Of a stretch of DNA of 49,160 nucleotides, positions 9,386 through 36,955 are shown in pieces (position 1 is the stretch's first letter; each line of letters begins with the position of its first letter). The position numbers were made by a program, and so were the translations under genes. Below the pieces are notes generated by a model, which had not been told where the DNA came from, did not search any database, and saw nothing but the letters and a program-made list of their open reading frames with translations. The DNA is taken from the NCBI GenBank assembly GCA_011174795.1, contig DUEY01000005.1:4885-54044 (forward strand), given 5' to 3'. The DNA comes from Dehalococcoidia bacterium (lineage in GTDB: Bacteria > Chloroflexota > Dehalococcoidia > SZUA-161).

Positions 9386-9778
9386 CTATGACTCGGCCTT
9401 CTTGAAGGCGTGCAGGGTGGTATTGTCGTCTATCTTCTCGAAGTCTACCTCGACGGGCATGCCGATGTAGACCTCCTCAGGTTCCATGAGACCGTGGGTT
9501 ATCAGCCGTGGTCCTTCCTCGAGCTCTACGAGCAGCACCGGCCAGGGATAGGGCATGGTTGCATGCTGTATGGTATAGCTGTGCACGGTTCCTTTGCCGC
9601 TGCACTTGGTCCATTCATACTCGAATGAGTTGCAGTAGGGGCACATCTCTATCGGCCAGAAACGGAACTTGCCGCAGTCTTTACATTTCTGCAGCAGCAA
9701 CTCGTGGCGCTTCAGGCCGTCGTAGTATTCCTGGTTTATAGGTCCCGGCCACGGGGCCAGTCTCGGTACCTCAGACAT
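9386..9778 (-). CDS. DUF35 zinc-ribbon/OB-fold protein, partner of the Ltp2-like aldolase
   Basis: A 130-residue acyl-CoA-associated OB-fold protein with an N-terminal zinc ribbon, C-K-D-C-G followed by C-P-Y-C. The later E-L-E-E-G-P-R-L segment is typical of the OB domain. DUF35 proteins form complexes with thiolase-like enzymes: in steroid side-chain breakdown the DUF35 domain of ChsH2 binds the aldolase Ltp2, and BbsA binds thiolase BbsB in anaerobic toluene breakdown. The gene is last in a minus-strand block and starts 12 bp after the Ltp2-like gene, with AGAGGAG before the ATG. The zinc ribbon lies between a helical start (Y-Y-D-G-L-K) and the OB fold. It is likely needed for folding or activity of its neighbour. 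Confidence 0.9.
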   Translation of the reverse strand: MSEVPRLAPWPGPINQEYYDGLKRHELLLQKCKDCGKFRFWPIEMCPYCNSFEYEWTKCSGKGTVHSYTIQHATMPYPWPVLLVELEEGPRLITHGLMEPEEVYIGMPVEVDFEKIDDNTTLHAFKKAES

Positions 9779-9790
9779 AGGACTTCTCCT

Positions 9791-10951
9791 CTAGGGTGAA
9801 CGTAGAATCAATGCGCCGGTAGGGATGCCGCTGCCGGCGGTAACGAGCACATGTTTGCAGTCGGGCACCTGTACCGGCGAGGTGCCCCTTATCTGGCGCA
9901 CGCCCTCGACTATCTGGTTCACGCCGTGGATGTAGGCCTCGGAGAGGCAACCGCCGCTGGTATTGCAGGGAAGCCTGCCGTCTATCTGCAGGGCGCCGTC
10001 TCTGACAAATGGACCGCCCTCCCCGAACTTGCAGAAGCCGAAGCTCTCCAACTGCATTATCACCAGCGGGGTGAAGGCGTCGTAGAACTGGGCGCAGTCG
10101 ATATCCTCAGGCCCTATTCCCGCCTCCTTCCACAGGTGCGGGGCAAGGCGGGTGTATTCCTCCAGGTCGGCGATATTCTCGCGCTGATAGCTGGTCATCA
10201 TCTCAATCCAGCTGCCCGTCCCCTGCTCCGCAGCCATGATATAGACCGGCTTCTGCTTCAGGTCTTTCGCCCTCTCCGGTGAGGTCACGATGAGGGCAGC
10301 TGCGCCGTCCGTCTCCTGGCAGTAATCGAACAGGCGCAGCGGGTAGGCGATCATTCGGGCGTTGGCGTGGTCCTCGAGCGTCAGGGGCCTGTCGTGCATC
10401 ATAGCCTTCGGGTTCATGTTGGCGTGCCTCCTGAAGGCAACGGCAACCTCGCCTAAATCGGTGGTCTTGGTGCCGTAGAGGTGTATGTGTCTGATAGCCA
10501 TGACCGCGACCATAGAGCCCGGTGCCATCAGGCCGAAGGGTATAGAGTACTGGAAGTGTCCTGCCATAGGCATCGCCGACGCCATTTGTCCGTAGCGGAA
10601 CCCTGAGCGTTCATTCAGCGCCCGGAAGCATGCCACATACTTAGCCTTGCCCAGTGCCACCGCCATAGCCGCCATTTGCACGATACCACAGCCAGCGCCG
10701 CCGCCGAAGAAGACCTCGGGGAAGAACCTCAGGTTCTCGATGCCGAAGTTCCTGGCTATCTCGTCGACCTGGTTGCTGTCTACCGAAAACCTGACGATAC
10801 CGTCGAGTTCCTTGGGACTTATCCCGGCGTCCTCACAGGCTGCCTTTATCGCCTCTAGCGCCAGGCGCATCTCGCTGCGGCCGGAGTTCTTGGAGTACTC
10901 CGTCTCACCGATGCCGACGATACAGGCCTTGTCTTTCAAAGAATCCGCCAT
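9791..10951 (-). CDS. Ltp2-like thiolase-fold aldolase (retro-aldol side-chain cleavage)
   Basis: A 386-residue thiolase-fold protein that, from remembered sequence, closely resembles Mycobacterium Ltp2. That enzyme splits the beta-hydroxyacyl-CoA of the steroid side chain by retro-aldol cleavage. Shared stretches include K-N-S-G-R-S-E-M-R-L-A, R-A-L-N-E-R-S-G-F-R-Y-G-Q and S-E-A-Y-I-H-G. The nucleophilic Cys of true thiolases is absent: the aligned position in G-G-G-A-G-C-G-I-V-Q is Gly and the Cys is shifted by four. Tyr290 (F-Y-D-A-F-T-P) and Tyr340 (A-Y-I-H-G) have the same 50-residue spacing as the two tyrosines I recall as catalytic in Ltp2. Upstream are two hot-dog hydratase genes and downstream a DUF35 gene, the expected partners. 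The natural substrate is inferred only as far as a branched beta-hydroxyacyl-CoA. Confidence 0.88.
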   Translation of the reverse strand: MADSLKDKACIVGIGETEYSKNSGRSEMRLALEAIKAACEDAGISPKELDGIVRFSVDSNQVDEIARNFGIENLRFFPEVFFGGGAGCGIVQMAAMAVALGKAKYVACFRALNERSGFRYGQMASAMPMAGHFQYSIPFGLMAPGSMVAVMAIRHIHLYGTKTTDLGEVAVAFRRHANMNPKAMMHDRPLTLEDHANARMIAYPLRLFDYCQETDGAAALIVTSPERAKDLKQKPVYIMAAEQGTGSWIEMMTSYQRENIADLEEYTRLAPHLWKEAGIGPEDIDCAQFYDAFTPLVIMQLESFGFCKFGEGGPFVRDGALQIDGRLPCNTSGGCLSEAYIHGVNQIVEGVRQIRGTSPVQVPDCKHVLVTAGSGIPTGALILRSP

Positions 10952-11005
10952 TTTTCAACCTTCTAATGTCTTAGTATACAGCCGCATGTGACCCAGCAAT
11001 AGCCA

Positions 11006-11473
11006 CTAGCTGCCGGAACCCCGGGTAGGCAAGGCCATGGTGATCTGGGCATTACAGAAGGGGCCTTCCTGGGTCACGGAGTTGACCTGTAGTTCAACCA
11101 GGTGCAGGCCTGACAGATACCCTTCGTCCTCGCCCCCGATCCATTTCCTGATCACACTACCTGATACTGTCATCGTATCGCCAACACAGCAATTACCTTC
11201 GATGTTGAAACGGGTCTTCTTTAGTTCTCCTTCGGGACCGCTCCAGTCGGTCGCCAGCCTGGACAATATACCTTCGGAGTGCATAATATTAACGATCATA
11301 TCCCTCTGCTGTGCCTTTAGAGCGAAATCTTTGTCATGGTGCATCGGGTTGGTGTCTCTCGTAGCCCAGGCACCGCCACTGATCTTGACCGCTGTCATTT
11401 GCATCGAGTAGGAGCCAATATCCTGCCCCTCCGTTACATCCTCCCAATAAACCGTATGATGAGACATCTTCAA
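11006..11473 (-). CDS. MaoC-like hot-dog enoyl-CoA hydratase, catalytic subunit (ChsH1-like)
   Basis: A 155-residue hot-dog protein that adds water to an enoyl-CoA. The hydratase motif is visible as A-T-R-D-T-N-P-M-H-H-D, which supplies the catalytic Asp and His of the R-specific hydratase family. The gene overlaps its upstream neighbour by 4 bp (ATGA), so the two products are probably made together. That neighbour is a second hot-dog protein without the motif, as in the ChsH1-ChsH2 heteromer of cholesterol side-chain degradation. The product would be the substrate of the aldolase encoded 54 bp downstream. Confidence 0.88.
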   Translation of the reverse strand: MKMSHHTVYWEDVTEGQDIGSYSMQMTAVKISGGAWATRDTNPMHHDKDFALKAQQRDMIVNIMHSEGILSRLATDWSGPEGELKKTRFNIEGNCCVGDTMTVSGSVIRKWIGGEDEGYLSGLHLVELQVNSVTQEGPFCNAQITMALPTRGSGS

Positions 11474-11979
11474 CTCCCTTCGCCTTGTTCTTTCGGTTTA
11501 TACTTCAGCACAGTCCTGACCTCTCGTCCAACCATCTCACCCTTCTGGTTATAGTATGTTTGGGTCGTGGTGATGAAGTGCCCGTCCCCGATGCGTGTCC
11601 TCTTCATGTCGGATACGCTGTCGAGCTTCATGATGTAGTATAGCTGGTCACCGGGGCGCACCGGCTTGTGGAACTCATGTATCATGTCTGTGGCAATCCA
11701 GGTGTCGACGCCGGGGAGTTCGAGTTCCGCCATGGGCATCCAGGGAAACTCAGGGAATGGCCACATCCGGGGCATGCACCACACCATTAGCATCTGGGGA
11801 GGCGCAATGATGCCGCCATACTTGCTCTTCTTTGCGTACTCCTCATCGGTGTACAGGGGATTTGCGTCCTCCATCATTTCACAATAGTGCCTGATCATCG
11901 ACTTATCAACTTCGTCAGGGGCATAGAAGGGCTCGGATTCCTTGCCTATCAACGCCAAATCCTTTTCACTTAGTGCCAT
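11470..11979 (-). CDS. MaoC/FAS1-type dehydratase N-terminal-like hot-dog subunit (ChsH2 N-domain-like)
   Basis: A 169-residue hot-dog fold protein. At the position where the catalytic subunit has D-T-N-P-M-H-H this one reads D-A-N-P-L-Y-T-D, so the His is lost and the protein is probably structural, lining the acyl-CoA tunnel of a heteromer. Y-G-G-I-I-A-P-P follows, as in FAS1-like dehydratase domains. In Mycobacterium ChsH2 this domain is fused to a DUF35 domain; here the DUF35 part is a separate gene two places downstream. It overlaps the catalytic subunit gene by 4 bp. Confidence 0.85.
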   Translation of the reverse strand: MALSEKDLALIGKESEPFYAPDEVDKSMIRHYCEMMEDANPLYTDEEYAKKSKYGGIIAPPQMLMVWCMPRMWPFPEFPWMPMAELELPGVDTWIATDMIHEFHKPVRPGDQLYYIMKLDSVSDMKRTRIGDGHFITTTQTYYNQKGEMVGREVRTVLKYKPKEQGEGS

Positions 11980-12059: not shown

Positions 12060-12854
12060 TTATTTCCCCTTCCAGACCGGTGGCCGCTTCTCCATGAATG
12101 CTTTTGGTCCCTCTTTGGCATCCTCTGTATCGAAGATAATCCAGGACTGCAGTCTCTCGATGGAGTATGCTGCATCGAGGGCAAGGCCTCGGAGCACGGA
12201 TTCCTTTATCGCCTGCACCGCAAGCGGGCCATTGGAGCAGATTTTCTCGGCATACTGCATTGCTGTCGGCATGAGTTCCTCGCGGGGCACGACCTTGTTA
12301 ATCAGACCTATCTCGTAGGCTTCCTGGGCGGTGAACTGGTTGGCGGTGAGCAGCATCTCCATGGCGCGGCAGTAGGGTATCTGGCGGGGGAGCCTCACCG
12401 TCGTGCCGCCACCGGGGAAAAGCGCCCAGGTGGGCTCCATAACGGCGAAAACTGCGTTCTCAGAGGCGACCCTGATATCCGTGCCGAGGAGCATCTCCAA
12501 CCCGCCACCAAGACAGTAGCCGTTAACTGCTGCGATTACCGGCTTCCAGAGGTCGAACCCGCGGAGCACGGCGTTGAGGGGTCTGGTATCCGACTGGAGG
12601 TCCCTGAGGTCGGCCTCGGTGATTCTGGGGAGGAACGTCTGGAGGTCGCCGCCGACGGAGAAGGCAGTCTTGCCGGCGCCGGTGATGATGGCTACCCAGA
12701 TATTGCGGTCGTCCCGGATATCCATCCAGGCGTCGGAAAGACGCTCCATCATTTCGTCGTCCATGGCGTTCATAGCCTGGCGGCGGTTCATGGTGACGAT
12801 TGCGATATGGTCCTTCTTCTCATAGATTACTGCTGGTTGCTTCTCCTCTGCCAT
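12060..12854 (-). CDS. Enoyl-CoA hydratase/crotonase family protein
   Basis: A 264-residue crotonase. The oxyanion-hole segments A-F-S-V-G-G-D-L and G-Y-C-L-G-G-G are present, with acidic residues in G-G-G-L-E-M and M-E-P-T-W where hydratases carry their catalytic Glu pair. The ATG at 12854 is chosen over an upstream in-frame start at 12938 because AGGAGGC stands just before it and the longer version would run into the preceding gene. It probably hydrates an unsaturated acyl-CoA in the same pathway as its neighbours. The exact member of the crotonase family cannot be told. Confidence 0.88.
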   Translation of the reverse strand: MAEEKQPAVIYEKKDHIAIVTMNRRQAMNAMDDEMMERLSDAWMDIRDDRNIWVAIITGAGKTAFSVGGDLQTFLPRITEADLRDLQSDTRPLNAVLRGFDLWKPVIAAVNGYCLGGGLEMLLGTDIRVASENAVFAVMEPTWALFPGGGTTVRLPRQIPYCRAMEMLLTANQFTAQEAYEIGLINKVVPREELMPTAMQYAEKICSNGPLAVQAIKESVLRGLALDAAYSIERLQSWIIFDTEDAKEGPKAFMEKRPPVWKGK

Positions 12855-12901
12855 GTTTGCCTCCTGTATTTTTATAGTGAGACTTTTAGTAATTCCTGTG
12901 C

Positions 12902-13318
12902 CTAGCTCTCTACCGGCTTGAACTTGGGCAGGTACCAATCCTGGTCTTCGACCTTCTCGAAGAACAACTCGACAGGCATATCAACATATAAATCCTCGTT
13001 TTTGCAGCCTACTATATTGGTATGCATCCGGGGCCCTTCCTCCAGCTCCACGATGGCGACATGGAAGGGTGTATCAAAGGCTGGATAGAGCGCCTGGTGT
13101 GTGACTTCCCAGGTGAAGATTTTAGCCTTTCCGCTCGCCTTGACACGCTGGAAATTCGTGCTCATGCACCTGGGACAAAGGATACTGGGGGGAAGCCAAT
13201 AGTAACCGCAGTCATCGCACCTCTGGATGAGCAACTCCTGTCTCTGGCAGCTATCCCAGTAGGGCTTTGAGTCTTCACTGGGCAACGGAAGCGGTTTAGG
13301 TATCTTGAATTCCGCCAT
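12902..13318 (-). CDS. DUF35 zinc-ribbon/OB-fold protein, second copy
   Basis: A 138-residue protein with the zinc ribbon C-D-D-C-G-Y-Y and C-P-R-C and an OB fold containing E-L-E-E-G-P-R-M. The ATG at 13318 is preferred over an in-frame start at 13348 inside the upstream gene because AAGGAGGT lies seven bases before it. That ribosome site is formed by the last codons of the thiolase-like gene, 2 bp away, so the two are coupled. As with the first DUF35/thiolase-like pair, the product should bind its neighbour and present acyl-CoA. Confidence 0.9.
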   Translation of the reverse strand: MAEFKIPKPLPLPSEDSKPYWDSCQRQELLIQRCDDCGYYWLPPSILCPRCMSTNFQRVKASGKAKIFTWEVTHQALYPAFDTPFHVAIVELEEGPRMHTNIVGCKNEDLYVDMPVELFFEKVEDQDWYLPKFKPVES

Positions 13319-13320
13319 GA

Positions 13321-14490
13321 TTACCTCCTTAAGATCATGGTAGAGCAACTGAAGGTTGGAGGATACTCGTTGACCACGCCGCCGAAGCCGGTAACGTAAG
13401 CGGTCTCCGCATCCTTCACCTGCCTCTCACCACAATCTCCCCTAAGCTGTTGTACTGCCTCTATGATGTGGCCGAAACCGAACGTGTGGCCTTCTGAGAG
13501 CAGGCCACCGGCAGTGTTGCAGGGGAGCTCTCCACCGAGCTCTATCCTGCCGTCCTCGACGAATGGGCCACTTTCTCCTACTTTACAGAAGCCCCCCGAC
13601 TCCAGTTGGACTATAAAGACGATAGTGTAGGCGTCGTAAAGCTGACAGATATCTATATCCTTGGGGGAGAGCTTTGCCATTTTATAAGCTGTATCGCCGG
13701 CCTTTGCCCATACAGCCCAATCGGATACATCAGGACGGCGCCAGGGACGCAGCAGCGGTGCTCCGTGGGCCTGGCCAAATCCGCTGATATAAACGGGCTT
13801 GTGCTTGAGGTTCTTAGCCCTCTCCGCTGAGGTAACTACTACGGCTGCACCGCCATCGGTCCAGGCGCAGCAATCGAACAAGCGCAGGGGCTCCACCACC
13901 CAGCGAGAATTCTGATGGTCCTCCAGCGTCATGGGCCTGCCATACATCTGGGCGTTTGGGTTCATGTTGGCGTGTTTTCTGCAGGCGACAGCGATTGCGC
14001 CGAACTGCTGGCTGGTGGTCCCGAAGTCGTGCATATGCCTGCGGGCTATCTGGGCAAGGAACGGTGTCGCCCCGATTTCTCCATAGGGCAGGGTAAACTC
14101 AAAGCCGGGAGGTAAACCGAGAGGGACGTCGATGGGATTGTTCTGCCAGCCATAGCAGCAGACAACGTTATTGCATATGCCTGCGTTGATTGCCATGGCA
14201 GCCATTTGTACTAGGATGATGGGTGTAGCGCCACCGGCATCTACCGTTGAGGTGAAGCCGGAGTGGATTCCCAGCAGGTCAGCCGCTCTTCCTGCAAAGC
14301 CATGACGCTCGCCCTGCTGTGACGGGTGCACAAGAAGAAGCCCGTCGATGTCATCCTTGGTGAGTCCGGCATCCTCTATAGCTCTCTTGCAGCCCTCGAG
14401 GGCGAAGCCCATGGTACTGCTTTCGGGGTTCTTCCGGGCGAGCTTGGTTATGCCAACTCCAGCTATGGCATATTTATCCTTCAAGCTCAA
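13321..14490 (-). CDS. Thiolase-fold lipid-transfer/aldolase-like protein (SCP-x/Ltp type)
   Basis: A 389-residue paralogue of the Ltp2-like protein. The nucleophilic Cys position is Gly/Ala in V-D-A-G-G-A-T-P-I-I, so classic thiolysis is unlikely. One of the aldolase tyrosines is kept in Q-L-Y-D-A-Y-T, but the second site reads S-E-G-H-T-F-G, with His in place of Tyr. It may therefore be an aldolase variant or have another C-C cleaving role. The start is TTG at 14490, seven bases after a full AAAGGAGGT ribosome site; no better ATG is available. The DUF35 gene follows at once. Confidence 0.86.
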   Translation of the reverse strand: MSLKDKYAIAGVGITKLARKNPESSTMGFALEGCKRAIEDAGLTKDDIDGLLLVHPSQQGERHGFAGRAADLLGIHSGFTSTVDAGGATPIILVQMAAMAINAGICNNVVCCYGWQNNPIDVPLGLPPGFEFTLPYGEIGATPFLAQIARRHMHDFGTTSQQFGAIAVACRKHANMNPNAQMYGRPMTLEDHQNSRWVVEPLRLFDCCAWTDGGAAVVVTSAERAKNLKHKPVYISGFGQAHGAPLLRPWRRPDVSDWAVWAKAGDTAYKMAKLSPKDIDICQLYDAYTIVFIVQLESGGFCKVGESGPFVEDGRIELGGELPCNTAGGLLSEGHTFGFGHIIEAVQQLRGDCGERQVKDAETAYVTGFGGVVNEYPPTFSCSTMILRR

Positions 14491-15513: not shown

Positions 15514-16677
15514 TCAGGGCCTGGGCAGACCCAGTCCTGCGATTGCGATGATTATCCTCTCTATCTCGTTGCTGCCGCCGCCGACAGCCATCATCAGGGA
15601 GAATTTATACTCCCACGCCATGTATCCGTCGTATGGAGCCCGTTTACCTTCCAGTAGAGTGCCGCAGGGGCCCATGATATGCACTGCCGTATTGGCCAAG
15701 CGCCGCTCCAGTTCGCTGGTGAAGGTCTTGGTGATAGATGCCTCCGAGAAGGGAACGATACCATTACTGAGAAGCCAGGCTACCCGATAGGCGAACAGGC
15801 GCCCGACCTCGAGGTCTATCGCCAACTGGGCTAGTTTCTGCCGGATGATCGGGTCCTTGCTGAGGGGTTTACCATTGCGCTCGGTCTTTTTGGCATACTC
15901 AACCACTTCTTCGAAGAAGCGCTGGTGCTGGGCTACCGTGCCTCCCATAAAGACCCTCTCATGGTCCAGAGCAGTGGTGAGATAGTCCCAGCCCTTATTG
16001 AGCTCTCCAACCACCGCAGTTTTGGGAACGCGCACGTCATCGAAGAAGACCTCATACTGCAGATAGTCCCACATGGTATCCATCTCTCTTACTGTGATAC
16101 CGGGGGTCTTCATATCGACAATGAACATGCTGAGTCCCCTGTGCCTCTTGGGGGCGTTGGGGTCGGTTCTGACTGTCATCCAGGCGTAGTGGGCTTGGCC
16201 GGCAAAGCTGGTAAATATTTTAGAACCGTTGATGACCCACTCATCGCCATCGAGAACGGCTGTAGTCTGGCACGCCGCAAGGTCGGTGCCGGCGTTGGGT
16301 TCAGTGTAACCAAGGCAAAACGTTATCTCACCACTGAGAATCTTGGGCAGGTACTCCTTCTTCTGTTCCTCGCTACCGATGCGGATGAGGGTAGGCCCGA
16401 CCATATTCTGGGCAAGAATATGAGCGCCGGCGGGCGCCCTGTGCCTCATCATCTCCTCGCCATAGACCAGTTGCTCCATGTAGGGGCGTCCACCCCCACC
16501 ATACTCTTTCGGCCATCCTACGCCCAGCCATCCTTTTTTCGCCAGCTTTCGGCTGAATTCTCGGCTGAAAAGGTCATGGGGGGTGCGTCCCTTGTGCTCC
16601 GGCCCTAGCTCCTGGCGAAGGAATTCGCGAAGCTCCTCTCTGAAGGCTTGTTCCTCTGCAGTGAAACCGAAGTCCAT
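15514..16677 (-). CDS. Acyl-CoA dehydrogenase, catalytic-type subunit of a probable pair
   Basis: A 387-residue FAD enzyme with the T-E-P-N-A-G-T-D flavin motif and the ending G-G-G-S-N-E-I-E-R-I. Glu240 in A-L-D-H-E-R lies at the isovaleryl-CoA dehydrogenase/ChsE catalytic position, while the medium-chain position is Gly. The gene directly follows another dehydrogenase gene (32 bp) that lacks this Glu, the pattern of alpha2-beta2 dehydrogenases such as FadE28-FadE29 of steroid degraders. Those enzymes act on short, branched steroid side-chain CoA esters. GAAAGGAAG precedes the ATG. Confidence 0.9.
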   Translation of the reverse strand: MDFGFTAEEQAFREELREFLRQELGPEHKGRTPHDLFSREFSRKLAKKGWLGVGWPKEYGGGGRPYMEQLVYGEEMMRHRAPAGAHILAQNMVGPTLIRIGSEEQKKEYLPKILSGEITFCLGYTEPNAGTDLAACQTTAVLDGDEWVINGSKIFTSFAGQAHYAWMTVRTDPNAPKRHRGLSMFIVDMKTPGITVREMDTMWDYLQYEVFFDDVRVPKTAVVGELNKGWDYLTTALDHERVFMGGTVAQHQRFFEEVVEYAKKTERNGKPLSKDPIIRQKLAQLAIDLEVGRLFAYRVAWLLSNGIVPFSEASITKTFTSELERRLANTAVHIMGPCGTLLEGKRAPYDGYMAWEYKFSLMMAVGGGSNEIERIIIAIAGLGLPRP

Positions 16678-16709
16678 AGCATCTTCCTTTCACGCCTTCG
16701 TTCTGCGGC

Positions 16710-17843
16710 TTAGAGGCCTATTTGCTGGGCAACGATTTCCTTCTGGAAATCGGTGTTTCCGAAGGCGACCTCTGTCGATTTCGCCCTGCGATAGTAGAGC
16801 CCGATGTCGTGGTCTCTGGTGGTACCTATAGCGCCGTGGCACTGCACTGCCCTCTCTGTAACGAAGAGGTAGGAATCGTTTATCCAGCCCTTTGCCACAG
16901 CGATGTCCATGGTAGCGGGAAGACCTTCCGCAAGCTTCCACGCAGCAAGGTAGAGGATGCTTCTGCTGGTGTCAACCTTGGTCCACATATTGGCGCAGTA
17001 GTGCTGGATTACCTGGAAGCTGCCTATCGGCTTGCCGTACTGCTCCCTTTCCTTGACATAGCTCAGGGTCATATCGAGGGATGCTTCGGCGCCTCCGACC
17101 ATCTCGGCACATTTGGCTATCGTGGCATGTTCCAGGACTTTCTCAATGACGGGCCAGCTATTATGGAGTTCTCCGAGCATATTCTTCTGAGGCACGCTGA
17201 CGTTCTCAAAGACAACCTCGCAGAGCTTGTCAGCACCGATGGTGGGCATTACCTCGCACTTAATGCCGGGGCTCTTGGCATCTACCAGGAACAGGGTGAT
17301 ACCCTCTTCAGGTGAGGAGCCTTCCTTTGTTCTAGCGACGCATATTATGCAGTCGGCGATATGGGCATTTTCCACGAAAAGCTTGGTGCCGTTGATGACG
17401 AAGCTGTCGCCCTGAGCCACGGCTTTCGTCTCCACTCCGACTGCACCATACAGTGCATTGGGCTCGCTGAGTGCCAAGGTGAGGATAAGTTCACCGCTTG
17501 CTACCTTGGGGAGGAACTCTTTTTTCTGTTCATCGGTGCCTGCAAAGAGAATTGGCAGGCTGCCCGTAACCACGGTACAGAAGAAAGGCCCGGGCAGGAT
17601 GTTACGCCCCATCTCCTGTAGTAGAATGACGAGGTCCATAAAGCCCATCCCCATGCCGTCGTACTCTTCAGGAAGCACCAGCCCCATCCAACCCAGTTCA
17701 GCCATCTTGCGCCATAATTCAGGCGAATAACCCTTCTCGTCTTCCTCGAGCTCTCGAACCAGTGTTTTCGGGCATTCCTTGCTTAGAAAATCACGTGCCG
17801 ATGTCCGGAGCATTTCCTGCTCTTCGGTTAAGTCGAGGTTCAT
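16710..17843 (-). CDS. Acyl-CoA dehydrogenase-like subunit without catalytic Glu
   Basis: A 377-residue dehydrogenase fold with intact N-terminal domain, a diverged L-S-E-P-N-A-L-Y-G flavin motif and the C-terminal Q-C-H-G-A-I-G-T-T-R-D-H-D segment that binds FAD across the subunit interface. The L-D-x-E-R catalytic site reads L-E-H-A-T here, and the C-terminal loop is A-F-G-N, so neither Glu position is filled. The protein probably supplies half of the FAD sites to the dehydrogenase encoded 32 bp downstream. AGGGGGCT precedes the ATG. It starts just after the thiolase gene. Confidence 0.88.
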   Translation of the reverse strand: MNLDLTEEQEMLRTSARDFLSKECPKTLVRELEEDEKGYSPELWRKMAELGWMGLVLPEEYDGMGMGFMDLVILLQEMGRNILPGPFFCTVVTGSLPILFAGTDEQKKEFLPKVASGELILTLALSEPNALYGAVGVETKAVAQGDSFVINGTKLFVENAHIADCIICVARTKEGSSPEEGITLFLVDAKSPGIKCEVMPTIGADKLCEVVFENVSVPQKNMLGELHNSWPVIEKVLEHATIAKCAEMVGGAEASLDMTLSYVKEREQYGKPIGSFQVIQHYCANMWTKVDTSRSILYLAAWKLAEGLPATMDIAVAKGWINDSYLFVTERAVQCHGAIGTTRDHDIGLYYRRAKSTEVAFGNTDFQKEIVAQQIGL

Positions 17844-17858: not shown

Positions 17859-19124
17859 CTAATCGTGGTTGAGCCAGGAGCGGTGACCGTCCCAGTAATC
17901 CTCTACTTCCACAACAGTTGCTGTGCCCTGGCCGAACCCGCCGCATATAGAGGCACAGCCGTATCTGACACCACGGCGGTTCATCTCATGGACAAGTGTG
18001 CCTAATACTCGAATACCGCTCGCTCCTATGGCATGACCGATGCAGAGTGCATCTCCGTTAACGTTCATTTTATCGTAATCTACACCTAGTTCTTTGCATA
18101 ATACAATAGGCACAACCGCGAAAGCCTCGTTTGTCTCCCACAGGTTGATATCGCTTGGTTTTAAACCTGAGCGCCCAATAGCTTCCTTGGTCGCCAGAGT
18201 AGCGCTATAGCCCATAATGCTGGGGTCGCACGCAGCCCACCCTATGGATCTTATGGTGCACATGGGCACTAATCCCAGCTCCCTGGCTTTCTCCTTGGGC
18301 ATAAACACGCCGGCACCGGCTCCGTCGCTTTGCTTGGACGAGCTGGCGGCAGTAACTTTCCCGTTTTCCTTGTAAAGTGTCGGGAGTTCACGCAGCTTTT
18401 CTATGGTTGTATCGGGTCTGACGTCCTCATCGTAGTCAACGATTTTCACCGTCCCATCGCTAAGCTTGCCTTCACATGGAATTATTTCATCTTTAAACCA
18501 GCCGTTCTTATAGGCTGCCGCCGCCCTCAGATTGCTACGCAGTGCCCACTGGTCCATCTCTTCTCTCTCGATATTGAACTTATCTGCAAGGTTTTCGGCG
18601 GTTATACCCATGCCTATCATGGCGCCTGTATCCACAATATCCCACAGCTTTGGATTGGGCAATCCGCGCGAGGTCGCGCCCGTGGCTATGGCTTCCTCCA
18701 TCATCTTTTCCATATCCGTATCGAATGTCCAGAGGGGGATAGGGAAGTGAGAGCAGCTCTCGTAGCCACCCGAGATAACGATATCCTCTATACCCAGCTG
18801 GATAGCCATGATTCCGAAGTGAGCACCGGCCATGCTCGAGGTACATGCCCGGTCAACACTCAACCCCCGGGTCTCGAAGGGGCAGGTCAGCAGAGCGACG
18901 CTTCTTCCGGGGTTTGCCTGCTCTCCGGACTGGTTTGGCGAGCCCATAGTTACCTCGTCGATCATGGATTTATCCAGCTTTGTGCGCTTAAATAACTCCT
19001 CGATCACGATAATCGTCAGGTCATCTCCCCGCATGTGCGAGAAGAATCCCGGTCTCTTCTGACTCCCTCTCCCCCAGGGCGTTCGTGCGAAGTCCACCAT
19101 TACTACTTCTCTTACTTGGGCCAT
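17859..19124 (-). CDS. Acetyl-CoA acyltransferase (degradative thiolase)
   Basis: A 421-residue true thiolase that cleaves 3-ketoacyl-CoA with free CoA. All signature regions are present: the nucleophilic Cys in R-A-C-T-S-S-M-A-G, W-E-T-N-E-A-F-A, the His in C-I-G-H-A-I-G-A-S-G, and the second Cys in S-I-C-G-G-F-G-Q-G. This sets it apart from the two Cys-less thiolase-like proteins in the same gene run. The ATG follows AAAGGGGA. It lies between two dehydrogenase genes in the same transcript. Confidence 0.93.
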   Translation of the reverse strand: MAQVREVVMVDFARTPWGRGSQKRPGFFSHMRGDDLTIIVIEELFKRTKLDKSMIDEVTMGSPNQSGEQANPGRSVALLTCPFETRGLSVDRACTSSMAGAHFGIMAIQLGIEDIVISGGYESCSHFPIPLWTFDTDMEKMMEEAIATGATSRGLPNPKLWDIVDTGAMIGMGITAENLADKFNIEREEMDQWALRSNLRAAAAYKNGWFKDEIIPCEGKLSDGTVKIVDYDEDVRPDTTIEKLRELPTLYKENGKVTAASSSKQSDGAGAGVFMPKEKARELGLVPMCTIRSIGWAACDPSIMGYSATLATKEAIGRSGLKPSDINLWETNEAFAVVPIVLCKELGVDYDKMNVNGDALCIGHAIGASGIRVLGTLVHEMNRRGVRYGCASICGGFGQGTATVVEVEDYWDGHRSWLNHD

Positions 19125-19156
19125 TTAGATTTTCCCCTTTCGGTGATATTTTTAAT

Positions 19157-20353
19157 CTACCAGCTTCTTGGCAACCCCAGTGCCAGTGAACAGACGAGGT
19201 TCCTCATAACCTCCGAGGTACCGCCGCCCATGTTCAGGCTGATTGATTGCAGGTATTCCTTCTCGTATTTACCGTTTAAAGGTGCCCATTTAGAGTACTC
19301 TACCTGTCCGTAGAGCCCCAGTATCTCGCAACCAATATAGCTGAAGCGCTGGTTTAGCTCAGTGGCGAGGACTTTGGCTGCTGCGGCATAGGATCCGGCG
19401 GCTATCAGGCCGTGTTTTTCCTGGTTCCAGACAATGAAGTAAGCAAAAGCACGACCCGTTTCGATATCAATGGCTAGCTGTGCAAGTTTATGCCTGATAT
19501 GAGGATTCTCTGCTAGGGGCTTCCCCCCTCGTTTGGTCTCTTTACAGAACTCGACCAGTTCCTCCAGTTCCCGTCTCAGGAATGAAAACAATATGATCAT
19601 CGAGCGCTCGAAGTTCGACATCATCTGTGAGGCGAGCCAGCCTTCGTTCTCTTTGCCTACCATGTTGCGTGCAGGAACGCGGACATCATCGAAAAATACC
19701 TCGTTGAACAGGTGAGAGCCCTCCAGGCTCAAGACTGGATTTATAGTAATGCCGGGGGACTTCATGTCGACAAGAAAGAAGGAAATTCCCCGGCTTCTCT
19801 TCTCCTCGGGATTCGTCCTGGCGATCATGAAACCCCAGTCGGCACGGTGGGCGCCGCTGGTCCATATCTTTTGACCGTTGACGACGTAATCATCGCCATC
19901 TCTGGTGGCGCGTGTGGTCAGGGATGCCAGGTCGGAGCCGGCACCGGGCTCGCTCCACAATTGGGTCCAGAATAGCTCTGCCCGCGCAATGGGAGGCAGG
20001 TGTTCCTTCTTTTGCTCGTCGCTTCCGCCATAGAGAAGCGTGGGAGCCAGCATACCTACGCCCCAGGGATCAACGCCTGCTCCTCTGTAGTACCCCTGTA
20101 CCTCGCTGAAGATGAACTGCTCTATGAGTGGAGCATCCTGACCACCGTATTCCCTGGGCCATGCTCGGGAAAGCCAGCCCTTTGCCGCCAGCTTCTTGGC
20201 CATCTTTTTATGGAACTCCCAGCATACATCCAAGCCGAACATGGCCTCCATGGATGTTCCCCATTCTGGCGGCGCTTTTGCCATCTCTTCCCTGAAGAAG
20301 TCGTCGAATTCCTTTCGCAGCGCTTCTTGTTCAGGGTTGAATCGAAAATCCAT
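19157..20353 (-). CDS. Acyl-CoA dehydrogenase
   Basis: A 398-residue FAD enzyme with the S-E-P-G-A-G-S-D motif, V-N-G-Q-K-I-W-T-S-G substrate segment and C-terminal G-G-G-T-S-E-V-M-R. Glu249 in S-N-F-E-R occupies the isovaleryl-type catalytic position; the Y-E-G-T Glu is Gly. It is therefore a third competent dehydrogenase in the window and is not obviously paired with an adjacent inactive copy. GGAAAGAGG precedes the ATG. The thiolase gene follows 32 bp downstream. Confidence 0.92.
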   Translation of the reverse strand: MDFRFNPEQEALRKEFDDFFREEMAKAPPEWGTSMEAMFGLDVCWEFHKKMAKKLAAKGWLSRAWPREYGGQDAPLIEQFIFSEVQGYYRGAGVDPWGVGMLAPTLLYGGSDEQKKEHLPPIARAELFWTQLWSEPGAGSDLASLTTRATRDGDDYVVNGQKIWTSGAHRADWGFMIARTNPEEKRSRGISFFLVDMKSPGITINPVLSLEGSHLFNEVFFDDVRVPARNMVGKENEGWLASQMMSNFERSMIILFSFLRRELEELVEFCKETKRGGKPLAENPHIRHKLAQLAIDIETGRAFAYFIVWNQEKHGLIAAGSYAAAAKVLATELNQRFSYIGCEILGLYGQVEYSKWAPLNGKYEKEYLQSISLNMGGGTSEVMRNLVCSLALGLPRSW

Positions 20354-20411
20354 AGTTACCTCTTTCCGGCTACCGGTTGCTTACGGATGTTTTTCATACG
20401 CTGTACGGCTA

Positions 20412-21218
20412 TTATTTACCCTTGAATATCGGCTCGCGTTTCTCCAAAAAAGCCTTGGCAGCTTCCATGAAGTCCTCGGTCTTCAGCAGCTTGCTTTGAA
20501 GGCTGACCTCGTACTTCAGCTGCTCCTTAATGTCTGTCTCCGTCAACGCTCTGTTCATGGCTTCCTTAGCTATGCCCACTGCCAACGGTGGATTCTTGGC
20601 TATCTTCTCCACCAGCTCCATGGCAGTCTTCATCAGGTCGTCGTGGGGAACAACCCGGTTCACGAGTCCTATTCGGTCAGCCTCTTCAGCGTCGATAATG
20701 TCCCCCGTGAACATAAACTCACAAGCCCTGGGTAGCCCGATGACTCGGGGAAGTGTAAAGGAACAGCCGCTATCGGGAGCGACCGCTCTTTTAACGAATA
20801 TTGAGGCGAATCTGGACTTATCGGAGGCGATTCTTATGTCGCAGGCCAGGGCAAGACCGAGACCAGCGCCAATCGCTGCACCGTTGATGGCAGCGATTAC
20901 CGGCTTGCTCATACTCCTGATCCTGATTACCGTGGCTGCGAGGGTTCCCTCTGCGTACGTCTCGCCCTCGGAATCCTCAACTGCTGCCGCTGCATCTCCC
21001 AAACTGGAAAAAAGGCTGAGGTCTATGCCGGAGGAAAAATGCTTGCCGGCTCCTGTCAGGAGCACTGCCCAGATATTTTCGTCCTGGCTAATCTCTTTGA
21101 ACGCAGCATCAAGCTCGTTCATGAGTTCTTTGTTAAAAGCATTACCAACATCGGGACGGTTAAGGGTTATGGTCGCTATGGCACCTTTCCTCTCCATGAT
21201 AAGCGACTGATAAGCCAT
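20412..21218 (-). CDS. Crotonase-family enoyl-CoA isomerase-like protein (PaaG/ECI type)
   Basis: A 268-residue crotonase with oxyanion-hole segments H-F-S-S-G-I-D-L and G-A-A-I-G-A-G. The first hydratase Glu is replaced by Leu in A-G-L-G-L-A, and the second site reads A-P-D-S-G-C-S-F, the Asp-containing motif of PaaG-like isomerases. A double-bond shift or ring-isomerising role is thus more likely than hydration. It is one of two similar adjacent genes, 30 bp apart. GGAGACGG precedes the ATG. Confidence 0.87.
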   Translation of the reverse strand: MAYQSLIMERKGAIATITLNRPDVGNAFNKELMNELDAAFKEISQDENIWAVLLTGAGKHFSSGIDLSLFSSLGDAAAAVEDSEGETYAEGTLAATVIRIRSMSKPVIAAINGAAIGAGLGLALACDIRIASDKSRFASIFVKRAVAPDSGCSFTLPRVIGLPRACEFMFTGDIIDAEEADRIGLVNRVVPHDDLMKTAMELVEKIAKNPPLAVGIAKEAMNRALTETDIKEQLKYEVSLQSKLLKTEDFMEAAKAFLEKREPIFKGK

Positions 21219-21248
21219 CTACCGTCTCCTATGTCTTTTTAATAAAGT

Positions 21249-22049
21249 CTATCTTCCTTTGAATACAGGGGGCCTCTTTTCCATGAAGGATTTGATGCCC
21301 TCCTGAAAGTCCTCAGTTTCAAGACAGATCCTCTGGGCAAAGGTCTCTAATTGTATGAGTTCCTCAATATCGCTGGTCAGCGCCTTGTTCGTAGCCCACT
21401 TGGTCAGTTCAATAGCCATCGGAGCTGCCTCGGCTATCTTCTTGGCCATATCCTTTGCTTCTTTTATGAGTTCATCATGTGGCACAACCTTGTTTACCAG
21501 ACCTAGTCGCTCTGCTTCTTTAGCGTCTATTCTGGCGCCGGTATACATGAATTCAAGCGCCTTAGCCAATCCTACCAGACGTGGCAGGAAGTAGGTCAAC
21601 CCATTGTCAGGGATGAGCCCCATACGGACAAAAACATTAGTAAACCTGGCCTTCTCCGAAGCTATGCGTATGTCACAGGCTAAAGCGAGAGAAAAGCCCA
21701 TGCCGGCAGCAACACCGTTAACCGCAGCTATTGTCGGTTTCTCCAGCTTAGCCACTCTTAAGCCTGCCATGCCCATAGGTTCCTTCAGTTGCTGTTTGGT
21801 CCTTGGTGGAGCCTCTGCTCCGGGGACGGCCAGTGTCAGGGTCTCCTCGACATCAGCACCTGCACAAAAACCAGGGTCGGCTCCTGTGAGGATGAGTACC
21901 CTTATGTCGTCATCGCTTCGTATTTCCTCAAAAGCGCTGCTTAACTCGAACCACATTGTGGGGCTGACAGCGTTTAGCTTTTCAGGGCGGTTCAGTATCA
22001 TGGAGGCAATGCCGTCTTCCTTTTTGATAATTATAGTTTCGTAACTCAT
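21249..22049 (-). CDS. Crotonase-family enoyl-CoA isomerase-like protein, second copy
   Basis: A 266-residue paralogue of the downstream crotonase. It shows G-F-C-A-G-A-D-V and G-V-A-A-G-M-G-F-S-L, with the Asp motif I-P-D-N-G-L-T-Y in place of a hydratase Glu. GGGAGGGG lies about 11 bases before the ATG. A 231-bp gap separates it from the SDR gene upstream; that gap has only a weak AT-rich stem at 22242-22260. Two tandem isomerase-like crotonases suggest a substrate whose double bonds must be moved before oxidation, or a heteromeric enzyme. Confidence 0.87.
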   Translation of the reverse strand: MSYETIIIKKEDGIASMILNRPEKLNAVSPTMWFELSSAFEEIRSDDDIRVLILTGADPGFCAGADVEETLTLAVPGAEAPPRTKQQLKEPMGMAGLRVAKLEKPTIAAVNGVAAGMGFSLALACDIRIASEKARFTNVFVRMGLIPDNGLTYFLPRLVGLAKALEFMYTGARIDAKEAERLGLVNKVVPHDELIKEAKDMAKKIAEAAPMAIELTKWATNKALTSDIEELIQLETFAQRICLETEDFQEGIKSFMEKRPPVFKGR

Positions 22050-22280
22050 TTGGCAACAACCCCTCCCTTCAACTTGCTCAGGGGTGGTAAACTCCTCATG
22101 TAAGGAGGAGGCAATATCTCATAGCACGGGCAAACTTGAGTGAGTCAGCCTGCAAATCGGGTGGCCGCGGCGGTCCACAGCCAACATAGCAATGGATGTT
22201 AGCCGTAACGCTATTGCAGAACCACTGACGCTGATTATTGCTAGAAAGAAACCCTTTCTATTTTATTAGCTATACGCTGC

Positions 22281-23177
22281 TTAAAAAGCCATTTCCGGCA
22301 GGGAGAGGGTCCCCAGCTCACGAATCTTTGCTTGCAGTTCTGGAATAGTCCATCTTTTTTGGATGTCGATAGAGTTCGCAAGATACCAGCCGTTGAACAG
22401 CTCCAGTTTACCTCCCCTGATGGATATAACCCGTCCAGTTATGTCCTGTGCTGCGTCGCTGGCCAGGTATACGACCAGTGGGGATACGTTCTCGGGGGCA
22501 AACTCATCGAACTGGCCCTCACCCGGTATTTCCGTAAAATATCCGGAAAGTGTAGTCATCCTGGTCCTGGCCATAGGGGTGACCGAATTCACCGTAACGT
22601 TGAATCGTTGAAGCTCCCTGGCCCAGATAAGGGTCAGGCATGCGATGCCTGCCTTGGCTGCGCCATAATTACTCTGTCCAGGATTGCCTATGAGGCCGGC
22701 GTGTGAAACGGTGTTAATTATGCGCCCGCCGCTTTCCAGCTTACCTGCTTTGCTCTGCTCTCTGAAATAGGCAGCGGCCCATCTGCCGCAGTTGAAAGTG
22801 CCTGTTAGGTGGACATCGAGTACGGCATCCCACTCCTCTTTTGACATATTGAAAATCATCTTGTCTCTCAGGAAGCCGGCGTTGTTGACGAGGATGTCGA
22901 GCTTGCCGAAGCTATTAACAGCGGTGTCTATAATCCTTTGTGCTCCCTCGAAATCGGTCACGCTATCGAAGCAAGCTACTGCATCCCCACCGGCATCCTT
23001 GATCTCCTTGACCACATCATCAGCGGGACCTTTAGCCTGTCCCGTGCCGTCCCATTCCACGCCGATGTCATTGACTACTATTTTGGCGCCTTCCTCAGCC
23101 ATGGCTAAGGCATGGCTTCTTCCAAGTCCTCTTCCTGCGCCTGTCACGATTGCGACCTTGCCATCCAGAACACCCAT
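22281..23177 (-). CDS. SDR-family 3-hydroxyacyl-CoA dehydrogenase (17-beta-HSD4/Hsd4A-like)
   Basis: A 298-residue short-chain dehydrogenase. The nucleotide motif T-G-A-G-R-G-L-G, N-N-A-G and the catalytic set Ser (T-V-S-H-A-G) with Y-G-A-A-K are intact. The Asp in V-V-N-D-I-G at the end of the second strand favours NAD. The long insert with W-D-G-T-G-Q-A-K-G-P-A-D is typical of multifunctional-enzyme-2/17-beta-HSD4-type dehydrogenases, which oxidise 3-hydroxyacyl-CoA including steroid side chains. AAAGGAGGT precedes the ATG. It has its own upstream promoter and probably heads the catabolic run to its left. Confidence 0.9.
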   Translation of the reverse strand: MGVLDGKVAIVTGAGRGLGRSHALAMAEEGAKIVVNDIGVEWDGTGQAKGPADDVVKEIKDAGGDAVACFDSVTDFEGAQRIIDTAVNSFGKLDILVNNAGFLRDKMIFNMSKEEWDAVLDVHLTGTFNCGRWAAAYFREQSKAGKLESGGRIINTVSHAGLIGNPGQSNYGAAKAGIACLTLIWARELQRFNVTVNSVTPMARTRMTTLSGYFTEIPGEGQFDEFAPENVSPLVVYLASDAAQDITGRVISIRGGKLELFNGWYLANSIDIQKRWTIPELQAKIRELGTLSLPEMAF

Positions 23178-23358
23178 ATTTGTACCTCCTTTTTTATTGG
23201 GCTAGTAAGCTATTCCTGTTAGGGGGAGATGTTGTCCTTATTCGTGTTCGAGGGTAAAAAGAAGTTCTTCTTCGGATGTTGCTCATCCTTGAAGAACAGG
23301 TTTATTCTGCTCACTGATTCTCTTCTTTGATAAGGCATGCGCAGAAATCGCGTTTGTT

Positions 23359-23388
23359 ATTCTATACTGTTTTCGCACGCAGTGTCAA
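23359..23388 (-). promoter_or_regulatory. Sigma70-type promoter upstream of the SDR gene
   Basis: On the minus strand TTGACA (23388-23383), 18 nt, TAGAAT (23364-23359). It gives a leader of about 170 nt. Its position after the CoA-transferase gene suggests a separate transcript for the SDR and downstream genes. Confidence 0.6.
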
Positions 23389-23421
23389 GGTAAACACTAG
23401 GAGTGAGGAACTTCAGTTCTC

Positions 23422-24750
23422 TTAGAAAATGGATTCGATGAGGTACTCATCACCCCCTATTATATTTTCCTTCTCTAGTTCGGCGACCTCTTCGTCGGAC
23501 ATCCCCAGTATGTCTTTGAATACGTAGTCGTTATGCTCGCCGAGGCACGGCGGCGGCTTGCGTATGCTAAGCGGGGTTTTAGGCATCTTCCAAAGCATTC
23601 CCGGATAGAGATGGGTTCCCGCTTCGCGGTGACTTACTGCCTCGAAGAAACCGCGGCTCACCAACTGAGCATCGCGAAAAGCATCGCGCTGGCTTATCAC
23701 CGGTCCCGCCGCTATGCCCTCTTTCTGCAGAATGTGCATCACCTCGTAGTTGTCATGGTGACATGTCCATTCCTCGACGAGCTTGTCGAGCTCATCCTGG
23801 TTCTCGAGGCGTCCTAAGGCCGTGGAGAACCTCTCCTCGCTGCACCAGTCGGGATTACCAAGGGCGCGGCAAAACCCTTCCCATTCCTCATCTGAGGATA
23901 CGGCGATCGCTACCCAGTCATCATCGCCGCGGCAACGATAAACGCCATGGGGTGCCATATAGGGGTGACGATTGCCCATGGCGGTCTGAATCCTGCCGTT
24001 CATAGTATAGTCCATAACGGCATCGGCCAGATGCGGGACCACGGTTTCGATCTGGGCAAGGTCGATAAACTGTCCTTTCCCGGTGCGTTTACGGTAGTGC
24101 AGGGCGCAGAGGATGGCAAAGGCGGCTGTGGCGCCGGAGGAAGCATCACAGTGGAATAGCAGCGATTGGGTGGTTGTCAGGTCAAGGTCGGTATAGCCCG
24201 TCAGCCAGGTATGACCGGCTAAGGCTTGAAGCTGTGCCCCGAAGAGGGAGCAATACTTGTGAGGGCCGGTGCAGCCCAGCCCGGGCATCCTGAGATAGAT
24301 TAAGTCCTCTTTAACCTCCTTGAGTGTATCGTAGGTTAAGCCCAACTTCTCCATGGTGGCAGGGGCGTTGCTTTCGAAGAAAACATCGCTTACATTAATC
24401 AATCTCTTGAAGACATCCTGTCCTTCGGGCCTGGTGAGATCCATACAGCAGCTTATCTTATTGCGACCCAGTGCGTGGAACATGGCGAAACGGTCCCAGG
24501 GTCTGTCTCCCGCCCAGTGGTCGAAGTAGGTTTGGATTCCACCTGTGCCGCCAAATGTTGCCCCTGTAGTGGGAACGAGGCCCTGAGGTGGTCTGGGCAT
24601 ATAGCCTCTCGTTATAGGGGGGAAGTGATGGACGGATTCCACCAGAATGAGCTCAGCTCCCAGGTCTGCCAGGAGCATGGTTCCGAAAGGCCCGGCGAAT
24701 ACCACCGGAATAGCAACGATTCTAACGCCTTCTAACGGAAGCTTAGCCAT
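23422..24750 (-). CDS. Class III (CaiB/BaiF) CoA-transferase, catalytic type
   Basis: A 442-residue family member. It carries G-K-G-Q-F-I-D-L and C-L-G-E-H-N-D, and the nucleophile Asp202 in C-D-A-S-S-G, thirteen residues before C-A-L. There is an extra ~30-residue insert in the N-terminal third (Gly/Thr-rich, around T-G-A-T-F-G-G-T-G-G) compared with the other copies. GAGGAGG precedes the ATG. It follows a paralogue whose Asp is replaced by Gln, 38 bp upstream, and both follow ferredoxin-linked 2-oxoacid oxidoreductase genes. The acid that accepts CoA is unknown. Confidence 0.92.
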   Translation of the reverse strand: MAKLPLEGVRIVAIPVVFAGPFGTMLLADLGAELILVESVHHFPPITRGYMPRPPQGLVPTTGATFGGTGGIQTYFDHWAGDRPWDRFAMFHALGRNKISCCMDLTRPEGQDVFKRLINVSDVFFESNAPATMEKLGLTYDTLKEVKEDLIYLRMPGLGCTGPHKYCSLFGAQLQALAGHTWLTGYTDLDLTTTQSLLFHCDASSGATAAFAILCALHYRKRTGKGQFIDLAQIETVVPHLADAVMDYTMNGRIQTAMGNRHPYMAPHGVYRCRGDDDWVAIAVSSDEEWEGFCRALGNPDWCSEERFSTALGRLENQDELDKLVEEWTCHHDNYEVMHILQKEGIAAGPVISQRDAFRDAQLVSRGFFEAVSHREAGTHLYPGMLWKMPKTPLSIRKPPPCLGEHNDYVFKDILGMSDEEVAELEKENIIGGDEYLIESIF

Positions 24751-24788
24751 TTTCTTAACCTCCTCGATGGATACTGAGGGCTACGGGC

Positions 24789-26009
24789 TCAGATAACTCC
24801 GCTCTCACGGAGCTTCACCAGGTCATCTCTGGTATATCCCAGAATATTGCAGTATATCTCTTCGTTATGTTGCCCTAAGAGCGGAGCTGGGCTCCTGATT
24901 TGCCAGGGTGTATCGGACATCTTGAAGGGTGCCCCGGGATAGGTGACCTTGCCTGTCTCTGGATGGTCGATCTCGGTGAAATATTCCCTTTCCTTAAGAT
25001 GTGGGTTCTTGAGTAGATCTTCGGGGCTGTTCACAGGAGCGCTCGCGATTTTGGCATTGATGAATTTCTCGAAGAGTTCCTCCTTATTGTGGTCGGCTAG
25101 CCAGGAGTACCAGATGGCATCGAACTCCATCCCTGCCTCCATACTGAAGATATTCTGAAACCTGGGATCTTCTAATAGCTCCGGCATCTCCATTGCCTGC
25201 AGGTATCTAGGCCACCACTGGGGCAGGCTGAGTGTGTTAATGAATCCGTTTTTACACGGGTAGACTCCTTGGGGCATGATGAGCATGCGCACTGCTTCTC
25301 GAGGCGGCGGCCAGCGGGTGGTAAGCACACCCGCACAGATATAACCCATAAGGTATATAATCCTTCTGTCGGCACTTCCAGCTTGGGTTTCCATAATAGA
25401 GATGTCTACATGCTGACCAGCTTCCTGGAGCTCTGCGGCGTACAGAGCACCCATCGCTGCTACAGCGCCGACAGTTCCCGCTTGATACTGGACGACATTG
25501 CCGCCGAGTTTCAGGGGTTCTCTCCCTGCAATTCCCGTAGAGTACATTTCACCGCCCATAGCATATTCGACTATCTCAGCTGCCTTGAAGTCGCGGTAAG
25601 GACCGGTCTGTCCGAAGCTGGAGATGGAGACCATCACTAGCTTGGGATTTATCTTCTCCATGGTTTCATAGTCAAGCCCCAGACCGGGCATAACGCGAGG
25701 TCTGAAGCTCTCTACGAGGATGTCCGCGTCCTTAACCAGCTCTTTGAGTATTTTTTTACCTTTCTCGCTCTTTAAATTGAGCGTGATGCTTTTTTTGTTG
25801 GTGTTGAGATGAAGAAAAGGCCCGCTCTTCTCTAGATGCGGGTCGTCTTTAAAGAAGGGCCCTATCCTCCTCGCCGGGTCTCCCTCTCCTGGCTTTTCTA
25901 TCTTTATAACATTAGCGCCATAATCAGCTAGAAGCTTGGTGCAGTAGGGGCCTGCCATATACCAGGACAGGTCTATTACTTTGACGTCCGATAAGGCTTG
26001 CTCAGGCAT
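24789..26009 (-). CDS. Class III CoA-transferase-like protein with Gln in place of catalytic Asp
   Basis: A 406-residue CaiB-family protein with V-I-D-L-S-W-Y, G-A-N-V-I-K-I-E and L-L-G-Q-H-N-E-E motifs. Gln174 in Q-Y-Q-A-G aligns with the nucleophilic Asp, so aspartyl-CoA catalysis is not possible in the usual way. The ATG at 26009 is chosen over a GTG nine bases upstream because the GGGGGG ribosome site is then at normal distance. The next gene is a paralogue with Asp, giving an inactive/active pair like the pair at the left edge of the window. Confidence 0.88.
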   Translation of the reverse strand: MPEQALSDVKVIDLSWYMAGPYCTKLLADYGANVIKIEKPGEGDPARRIGPFFKDDPHLEKSGPFLHLNTNKKSITLNLKSEKGKKILKELVKDADILVESFRPRVMPGLGLDYETMEKINPKLVMVSISSFGQTGPYRDFKAAEIVEYAMGGEMYSTGIAGREPLKLGGNVVQYQAGTVGAVAAMGALYAAELQEAGQHVDISIMETQAGSADRRIIYLMGYICAGVLTTRWPPPREAVRMLIMPQGVYPCKNGFINTLSLPQWWPRYLQAMEMPELLEDPRFQNIFSMEAGMEFDAIWYSWLADHNKEELFEKFINAKIASAPVNSPEDLLKNPHLKEREYFTEIDHPETGKVTYPGAPFKMSDTPWQIRSPAPLLGQHNEEIYCNILGYTRDDLVKLRESGVI

Positions 26010-36945: not shown

Positions 36946-36955
36946 AGTGTTCTCT

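Follow-up and report, generated by a model that had tools for sequence, protein, structure and literature searches.

How might a probable anaerobe take apart an acyl chain beyond a branched carbon? This question is raised by four adjacent genes, hereafter the block, in a Dehalococcoidia bacterium (assembly GCA_011174795.1), on a stretch of 49,160 nucleotides (positions 4,885 to 54,044) of contig DUEY01000005.1 that was analysed as a whole and is called the window. The open reading frame (ORF) list of the window places all four on the minus strand and, transcribed from 11979 to 9386, they encode a ChsH2-like protein, a ChsH1-like protein, an Ltp2-like protein and a DUF35 protein, which is the order claimed by an earlier, sequence-only reading of this DNA. 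The first two genes overlap by 4 bp and the gaps that follow are 54 bp and 12 bp, so that all four look co-transcribed. We consider it likely that two coupled enzymes are encoded here: an enoyl-CoA hydratase and an Ltp2-type retro-aldolase, the latter with its DUF35 partner on a separate chain. The homology, the catalytic residues, the conserved gene order and the absence of the thiolase Cys are observed, and it is from these that we infer the reaction, the complex and the coupling.

The best sequence match of each block protein in the Protein Data Bank (PDB) is a component of a known hydratase or aldolase. The ChsH2-like protein matches the hot-dog chain of Mycobacterium tuberculosis ChsH2 (4w78_A, E=9e-17), the ChsH1-like protein matches M. 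tuberculosis ChsH1 (4w78_B, E=4e-11), the Ltp2-like protein matches TcLtp2 of Thermomonospora curvata (6ok1_A, E=4.5e-123), and the DUF35 protein matches the ChsH2 DUF35 domain that was co-crystallised with TcLtp2 (6ok1_B, E=3e-20). All four matches far exceed chance. Furthermore, the Ltp2-like protein exceeds the cut-off of the NCBIfam model PRK07855, 'lipid-transfer protein' (532.8 vs 469 bits), and the DUF35 protein is above the cut-offs for PF12172 and PF01796 (zinc ribbon and OB fold). An AlphaFold model of the ChsH2-like protein (pLDDT 64) found the ChsH2 chains of 4W78 and 4WNB as its best Foldseek matches (TM ~0.5). Unlike ChsH2 itself, this protein has no fused DUF35 domain, which is instead a protein of its own. 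The identification of a ChsH2-ChsH1-Ltp2-type set with a separate DUF35, for which the sequence-only reading had proposed profile searches, is thus backed by both PDB and profile matches.

The active-site residues agree with these assignments. The ChsH1-like motif GAWATRDTNPMHHD aligns with ATRDFQDVHHD of M. tuberculosis ChsH1, and the protein retains the Asp/His dyad (TRDTNPMHHD). In the ChsH2-like protein, EDANPLYTD aligns with GDRNPIYVD of M. tuberculosis ChsH2, and the replacement of His by Tyr described for ChsH2 (PMC11321319) is common to both. The alignments therefore uphold the two hot-dog motifs noted earlier, one subunit without the His and one with D-x-N-P-x-H. The D-x4-H dyad of the ChsH1-like protein and the NPLY of the ChsH2-like protein are conserved in all closer relatives of the hot-dog alignment, and a few distant rows, such as L060 and L066, deviate from this pattern. 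In TcLtp2, Tyr294 is the catalytic base, Tyr344 is the acid and His296 of the YDHF motif lies in the oxyanion hole (PMC12329534). As Y290 and Y340 of the window protein align with Y294 and Y344 of TcLtp2, the catalytic tyrosines had been chosen correctly. The missing thiolase Cys was also seen: Gly stands where SCP2-thiolase has its nucleophilic Cys, and the His position of the thiolase GHxxG motif is occupied by Tyr340.

In the proposed mechanism, an acyl-CoA dehydrogenase would supply a beta,beta-disubstituted enoyl-CoA to a hydratase in which the ChsH1-like subunit is catalytic and the ChsH2-like subunit holds the substrate. Addition of water by the Asp/His dyad would produce a tertiary beta-hydroxyacyl-CoA that could not be oxidised to a beta-keto thioester. 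Y290 of the Ltp2-like enzyme would then take the hydroxyl proton and Y340 would reprotonate the departing acyl-CoA enolate. The products would be a ketone and a short acyl-CoA, and their removal would pull the unfavourable hydration forward. The whole route would be independent of oxygen. In Comamonas TA441, hydratase and aldolase activity persist when ChsH2 is expressed as separate MaoC and DUF35 parts (PMC12502768), so a standalone DUF35 protein appears workable.

The missing Cys and the two tyrosines favour a predicted retro-aldol cleavage of a branched chain, as first suggested, over thiolysis. A thiolase containing DUF35, of which benzoylsuccinyl-CoA thiolase BbsAB and the acetoacetyl-CoA thiolase complex of archaea are examples, would instead cleave a beta-keto thioester. 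Thiolases are often paired with DUF35. The genes around the block also resemble the bbs operon, since both have a dehydrogenase, a crotonase, a short-chain dehydrogenase/reductase (SDR) and class III CoA-transferases in a pair. BbsAB of Geobacter metallireducens (7PXP) also combines a separate DUF35 subunit with a thiolase-fold subunit in an anaerobe. However, the annotation of BbsAB is that of a thiolase, and at the positions of the thiolase Cys and His the window protein carries Gly and Tyr340. The sequence match to BbsAB is also far weaker: the BbsA and BbsB models (NF053627 and NF053628) gave 34.5 and 111.5 bits against cut-offs of 250 and 750, the Ltp2 match is much the stronger (414 vs 107 bits), and the neighbouring genes that were tested against NCBIfam gave no Bbs-named match. 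With the Cys missing and the scores weak, we rejected this explanation as very unlikely. It could also be argued that the genes form a biosynthetic unit, in which the two hot-dog proteins would make up a HadAB-like 3-hydroxyacyl dehydratase and the Ltp2-like protein would serve in condensation or acyl transfer. HadA/HadB models do match the ChsH2-like protein at 47.8 bits and the ChsH1-like protein at 21 bits, but ChsH1 and ChsH2 match better by sequence and by fold, and the neighbouring acyl-CoA dehydrogenases, thiolase and CoA-transferases are typical of breakdown. A HadAB-like dehydratase was therefore rejected and seems scarcely credible.

Conservation of the block also speaks for the proposed hydratase and retro-aldolase. 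ChsH1 orthologs with 65-91% identity are present in seven further members of the family (genomes G164, G079, G244, G208, G094, G175 and G197). The order ChsH2-ChsH1-Ltp2 is found in all seven and the DUF35 gene comes next in six, the sequence available for G164 (L118) stopping at Ltp2. The named metagenome-assembled genomes L009, L010 and L011 show the same order; some of these are probably the same assemblies as numbered genomes (L010 and L044 look alike), and the genome counts may include one assembly twice. Two further Dehalococcoidia lineages, at lower identity, also have ChsH2-ChsH1-Ltp2-DUF35. One (L047, L048) has YDAF, acyl-CoA dehydrogenases on both sides of the block and a second Ltp2-like/DUF35 pair, and the other (L052) has YDHF. 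DUF35 is adjacent to the Ltp2-like gene in the relatives that cover that stretch, and is its putative binding partner. In several relatives (L046-L049 and L057, from G079, G063, G175, G131 and G164), an Ltp2-like gene with YDxF/YDxY stands in tandem with a second one that has LDDSY, LDDAY or LDDTF in that place. Most of these genes have a DUF35 gene next to them, and in L049 six Ltp2-like genes alternate with DUF35 genes. These tandems look like pairs of catalytic and non-catalytic thiolase-fold subunits. In some Dehalococcoidia (L129-L131, L134-L137 and L140), an ORF of at least about 350 aa with a ChsH2-like match lies at the position matched by the ChsH1-like query, and is apparently a fused double hot-dog hydratase.

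Among known systems, M. tuberculosis Rv3542c-Rv3541c-Rv3540c and its counterparts in Nocardia and Nonomuraea (L085, L086) share the gene order, the heteromeric hot-dog hydratase with one dead subunit and the Ltp2-type aldolase with its Tyr pair. They differ in being from aerobic steroid degraders and in the fusion of DUF35 to ChsH2, just as the sequence-only reading had described Mycobacterium, and L085, L086 and TcLtp2 have YDHF where the window protein has YDAF. Ltp2-ChsH2(DUF35) of T. curvata (6OK1) shares ~52% aldolase identity, both catalytic tyrosines and a DUF35 partner, but in the window His296 is replaced by Ala and DUF35 is a separate gene. Sal-Shy, the bile-acid aldolase-hydratase of Comamonas testosteroni, is likewise a thiolase-fold retro-aldolase with a DUF35 partner and a MaoC hydratase, but has a YDCY active site (Tyr302/Cys304), a homomeric hydratase and a C5 side chain as substrate (PMC12329534, PMC11321319). 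ChsH2 homologs with DUF35 in one chain were found in Nocardia, Nonomuraea, Novosphingobium ES2-1 and Vibrio alfacsensis records; the 174-kb V. alfacsensis plasmid (L071) carries an igr-like set of fused MaoC-DUF35, acyl-CoA dehydrogenases, MaoC and Ltp2. Rhodococcus rhodochrous plasmid pGD02.2.1 (L072/L076), by contrast, encodes all four proteins in separate adjacent genes with a standalone DUF35, although in the order ChsH2-ChsH1-DUF35-Ltp2 and with YDHF. The split DUF35 emphasised by the sequence-only reading is thus real and conserved, but since it is also found on this plasmid of an aerobe and in several Dehalococcoidia lineages, it is neither unique nor an anaerobic trait.

Several points weigh against an Ltp2-type retro-aldolase. 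In the tree, the window protein and its orthologs form their own Dehalococcoidia clade (support 100/100), outside the steroid-type clade of TcLtp2 and the fused-DUF35 enzymes (99/92), both lying within a larger group of 34 sequences (96/88). The protein is thus a relative of Ltp2, not a shown steroid Ltp2. The tree, whose root is not established, would allow DUF35 to have been separate at first and to have been fused later in the steroid-type clade. The YDHF motif reads YDAF in the window protein and its orthologs (H296 of TcLtp2 corresponds to A292), a change missed by the sequence-only reading, and with Ala for the oxyanion-hole His the active site is not identical to that of TcLtp2. In TcLtp2, replacing His296 causes a modest, ~14-fold loss and the residue is not essential (PMC12329534). 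An AlphaFold model of the Ltp2-like protein built from 4 sequences reached a pLDDT of 33 and was discarded. Finally, no assay of any Dehalococcoidia member was found in the open-access literature.

As for the host, neither the terminal oxidase COX1 nor P450 was found in the genome assembly, which is ~90% complete, the missing ~10% limiting this and the other negative searches of the genome. Their absence is consistent with an anaerobic host and supports the 'probable anaerobe' of the sequence-only reading; this deep-sediment Dehalococcoidia bacterium probably lives without oxygen. Markers of steroid breakdown were also sought in the genome. A ketosteroid-dehydrogenase-like query, itself a Rhodococcus protein closest to 4-oxocyclohexanecarboxylate dehydrogenase, had no homolog (best match a 47-residue stretch), TIGR03479 found no type-II Mo enzyme of the steroid C25 dehydrogenase class over its cut-off, and an IpdE2 search gave generic acyl-CoA dehydrogenase matches below cut-off and nothing else. 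The matches of PF01144 and PF03060 were CoA-transferases and NMO-like flavoproteins, neither of them diagnostic of steroid ring breakdown. A DMSO-reductase-family gene near the block of L044, whose start is also present in L009, was considered as a steroid hydroxylase and rejected: its top scores are DmsA/YnfE, not type-II. On steroid or sterol breakdown in Dehalococcoidia, the open-access literature yielded the SAR202 proposal alone, in which oxygenases are used (PMC5395668).

The surroundings of the block (Table 1) are rich in genes of acyl-CoA metabolism. The second Ltp2-like protein probably acts as a further aldolase or lyase in this gene run, and the crotonase that accompanies it and its DUF35 protein is a possible hydratase for this enzyme. 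The first of the paired acyl-CoA dehydrogenases has its best matches among chains of heteromeric steroid acyl-CoA dehydrogenases (6wy8_B, 4x28_A), and the second among generic ones. The upstream SDR exceeds the PRK07791 cut-off, and an amidohydrolase, an oxoacid:ferredoxin oxidoreductase and an MR/MLE enzyme are also encoded upstream in the same direction. In relatives, the genes beside the block include homologs of the thiolase, of one crotonase and, in many cases, of the third acyl-CoA dehydrogenase, with CoA-transferases, SDR, NMO-like flavoproteins and aldehyde:ferredoxin oxidoreductase (AFOR) near it in some relatives only. On the opposite strand, at 6841-9294 (+), the window encodes a glycyl radical enzyme of the PFL2/dehydratase group in which GCxE reads GCMR (C458, R460), Arg replacing the catalytic Glu of glycerol-dehydratase-type enzymes; the relatives examined did not show this gene next to the block. 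Two DegV-family genes are adjacent in tandem at 36911-38729 (+).

Table 1. Genes of the block and of its surroundings, with positions in the window.
Feature	Position	Strand	Remarks
ChsH2-like non-catalytic MaoC hot-dog subunit	11470..11979	minus	169 aa; Tyr replaces catalytic His
ChsH1-like catalytic MaoC hot-dog subunit	11006..11473	minus	155 aa; TTG start called, ATG two codons further in
Ltp2-like retro-aldolase (predicted)	9791..10951	minus	386 aa; Y290 and Y340, YDAF, Gly at thiolase Cys column
Standalone DUF35 protein	9386..9778	minus	130 aa; zinc ribbon and OB fold; homologous to ChsH2 C-terminal domain
Crotonase	12060..12938	minus	Best NCBIfam model EchA19, 290 bits, below cut-off of 400
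Second DUF35 protein	12902..13348	minus	Candidate partner of second Ltp2-like protein
Second Ltp2-like protein	13321..14490	minus	YDAY; His at second Tyr position
Two adjacent acyl-CoA dehydrogenases	15514..17843	minus	Candidate ChsE1/ChsE2-like pair
Thiolase, acyl-CoA dehydrogenase, two crotonases, SDR, two class III CoA-transferases	17859..26018	minus	Beta-oxidation genes
AFOR	31066..32934	minus	Near block in L044 and L045 too

If the block is a hydratase and retro-aldolase, what might it cut? A steroid substrate, from which the last C3 unit would be removed as propionyl-CoA to leave a 17-ketosteroid, the reaction of Mycobacterium and Comamonas but here in an obligate anaerobe, is suggested by the nearest solved structures and the characterised relatives, all of which are steroid enzymes, and by the best matches of the neighbouring acyl-CoA dehydrogenase and crotonase (EchA19). 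This link is associative. Furthermore, bile acids can be degraded by a two-aldolase route through Sal, Sad, a ligase and ChsE/ChsH/Ltp2 (PMC8399759), which the second Ltp2-like/DUF35 pair, the AFOR and the CoA-transferases could mirror. In this scheme, whose assignment of AFOR to the role of the aldehyde dehydrogenase Sad we infer, the second pair would yield an aldehyde, AFOR would oxidise it, the CoA-transferases would re-activate the product and ChsH1/ChsH2/Ltp2 would release a ketone. That Dehalococcoidia use two such successive retro-aldol cleavages, without oxygen, on polycyclic terpenoids (sterols, hopanoids or related alicyclic acids) seems unlikely on present evidence. Against steroids stand the position of the Ltp2-like protein outside the steroid clade, the lack of a 3-ketosteroid-dehydrogenase-like gene and of a type-II Mo enzyme in the genome searches, and the setting of the split block of Rhodococcus, which lies among P450, BVMO-like, MhpA-like and 4-oxocyclohexanecarboxylate-dehydrogenase-like genes in no obvious steroid cluster; we regard a steroid substrate as doubtful. 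The same cyclohexanone-type neighbours, the distinct clade, the altered YDAF motif and the missing 3-ketosteroid-dehydrogenase-like gene argue for a non-steroid alicyclic or terpenoid acyl-CoA, such as a cycloalkylidene-acetyl-CoA or a 3-methyl-branched isoprenoid enoyl-CoA. However, these signs are indirect and the pocket-forming specialisation of ChsH2 has been described for bulky steroid rings (PMC11321319), so that we see the case for this substrate class as evenly balanced.

To our knowledge, the characterised cases of this retro-aldol chemistry come from aerobic or denitrifying steroid degraders only. Aldolytic side-chain cleavage under anoxia has already been proposed for denitrifiers, for example Azoarcus Aa7 (PMC8399759), and the predicted chemistry is therefore of a known kind, here in a new, anaerobic-looking host. 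No description of the Dehalococcoidia block was found in the open-access literature, the scope of our search. The novelty lies in the group of hosts, in an Ltp2-like clade of its own with a YDAF active site, and in the conservation of the split form in Dehalococcoidia. The occurrence of split DUF35 across lineages offers a natural system for studying the role of the DUF35 tether. Retro-aldol cleavage beyond a branched carbon lets beta-oxidation proceed where thiolysis cannot. That Dehalococcoidia in which neither COX1 nor P450 was found conserve the complete block suggests a testable route to branched or alicyclic carbon for anaerobes.

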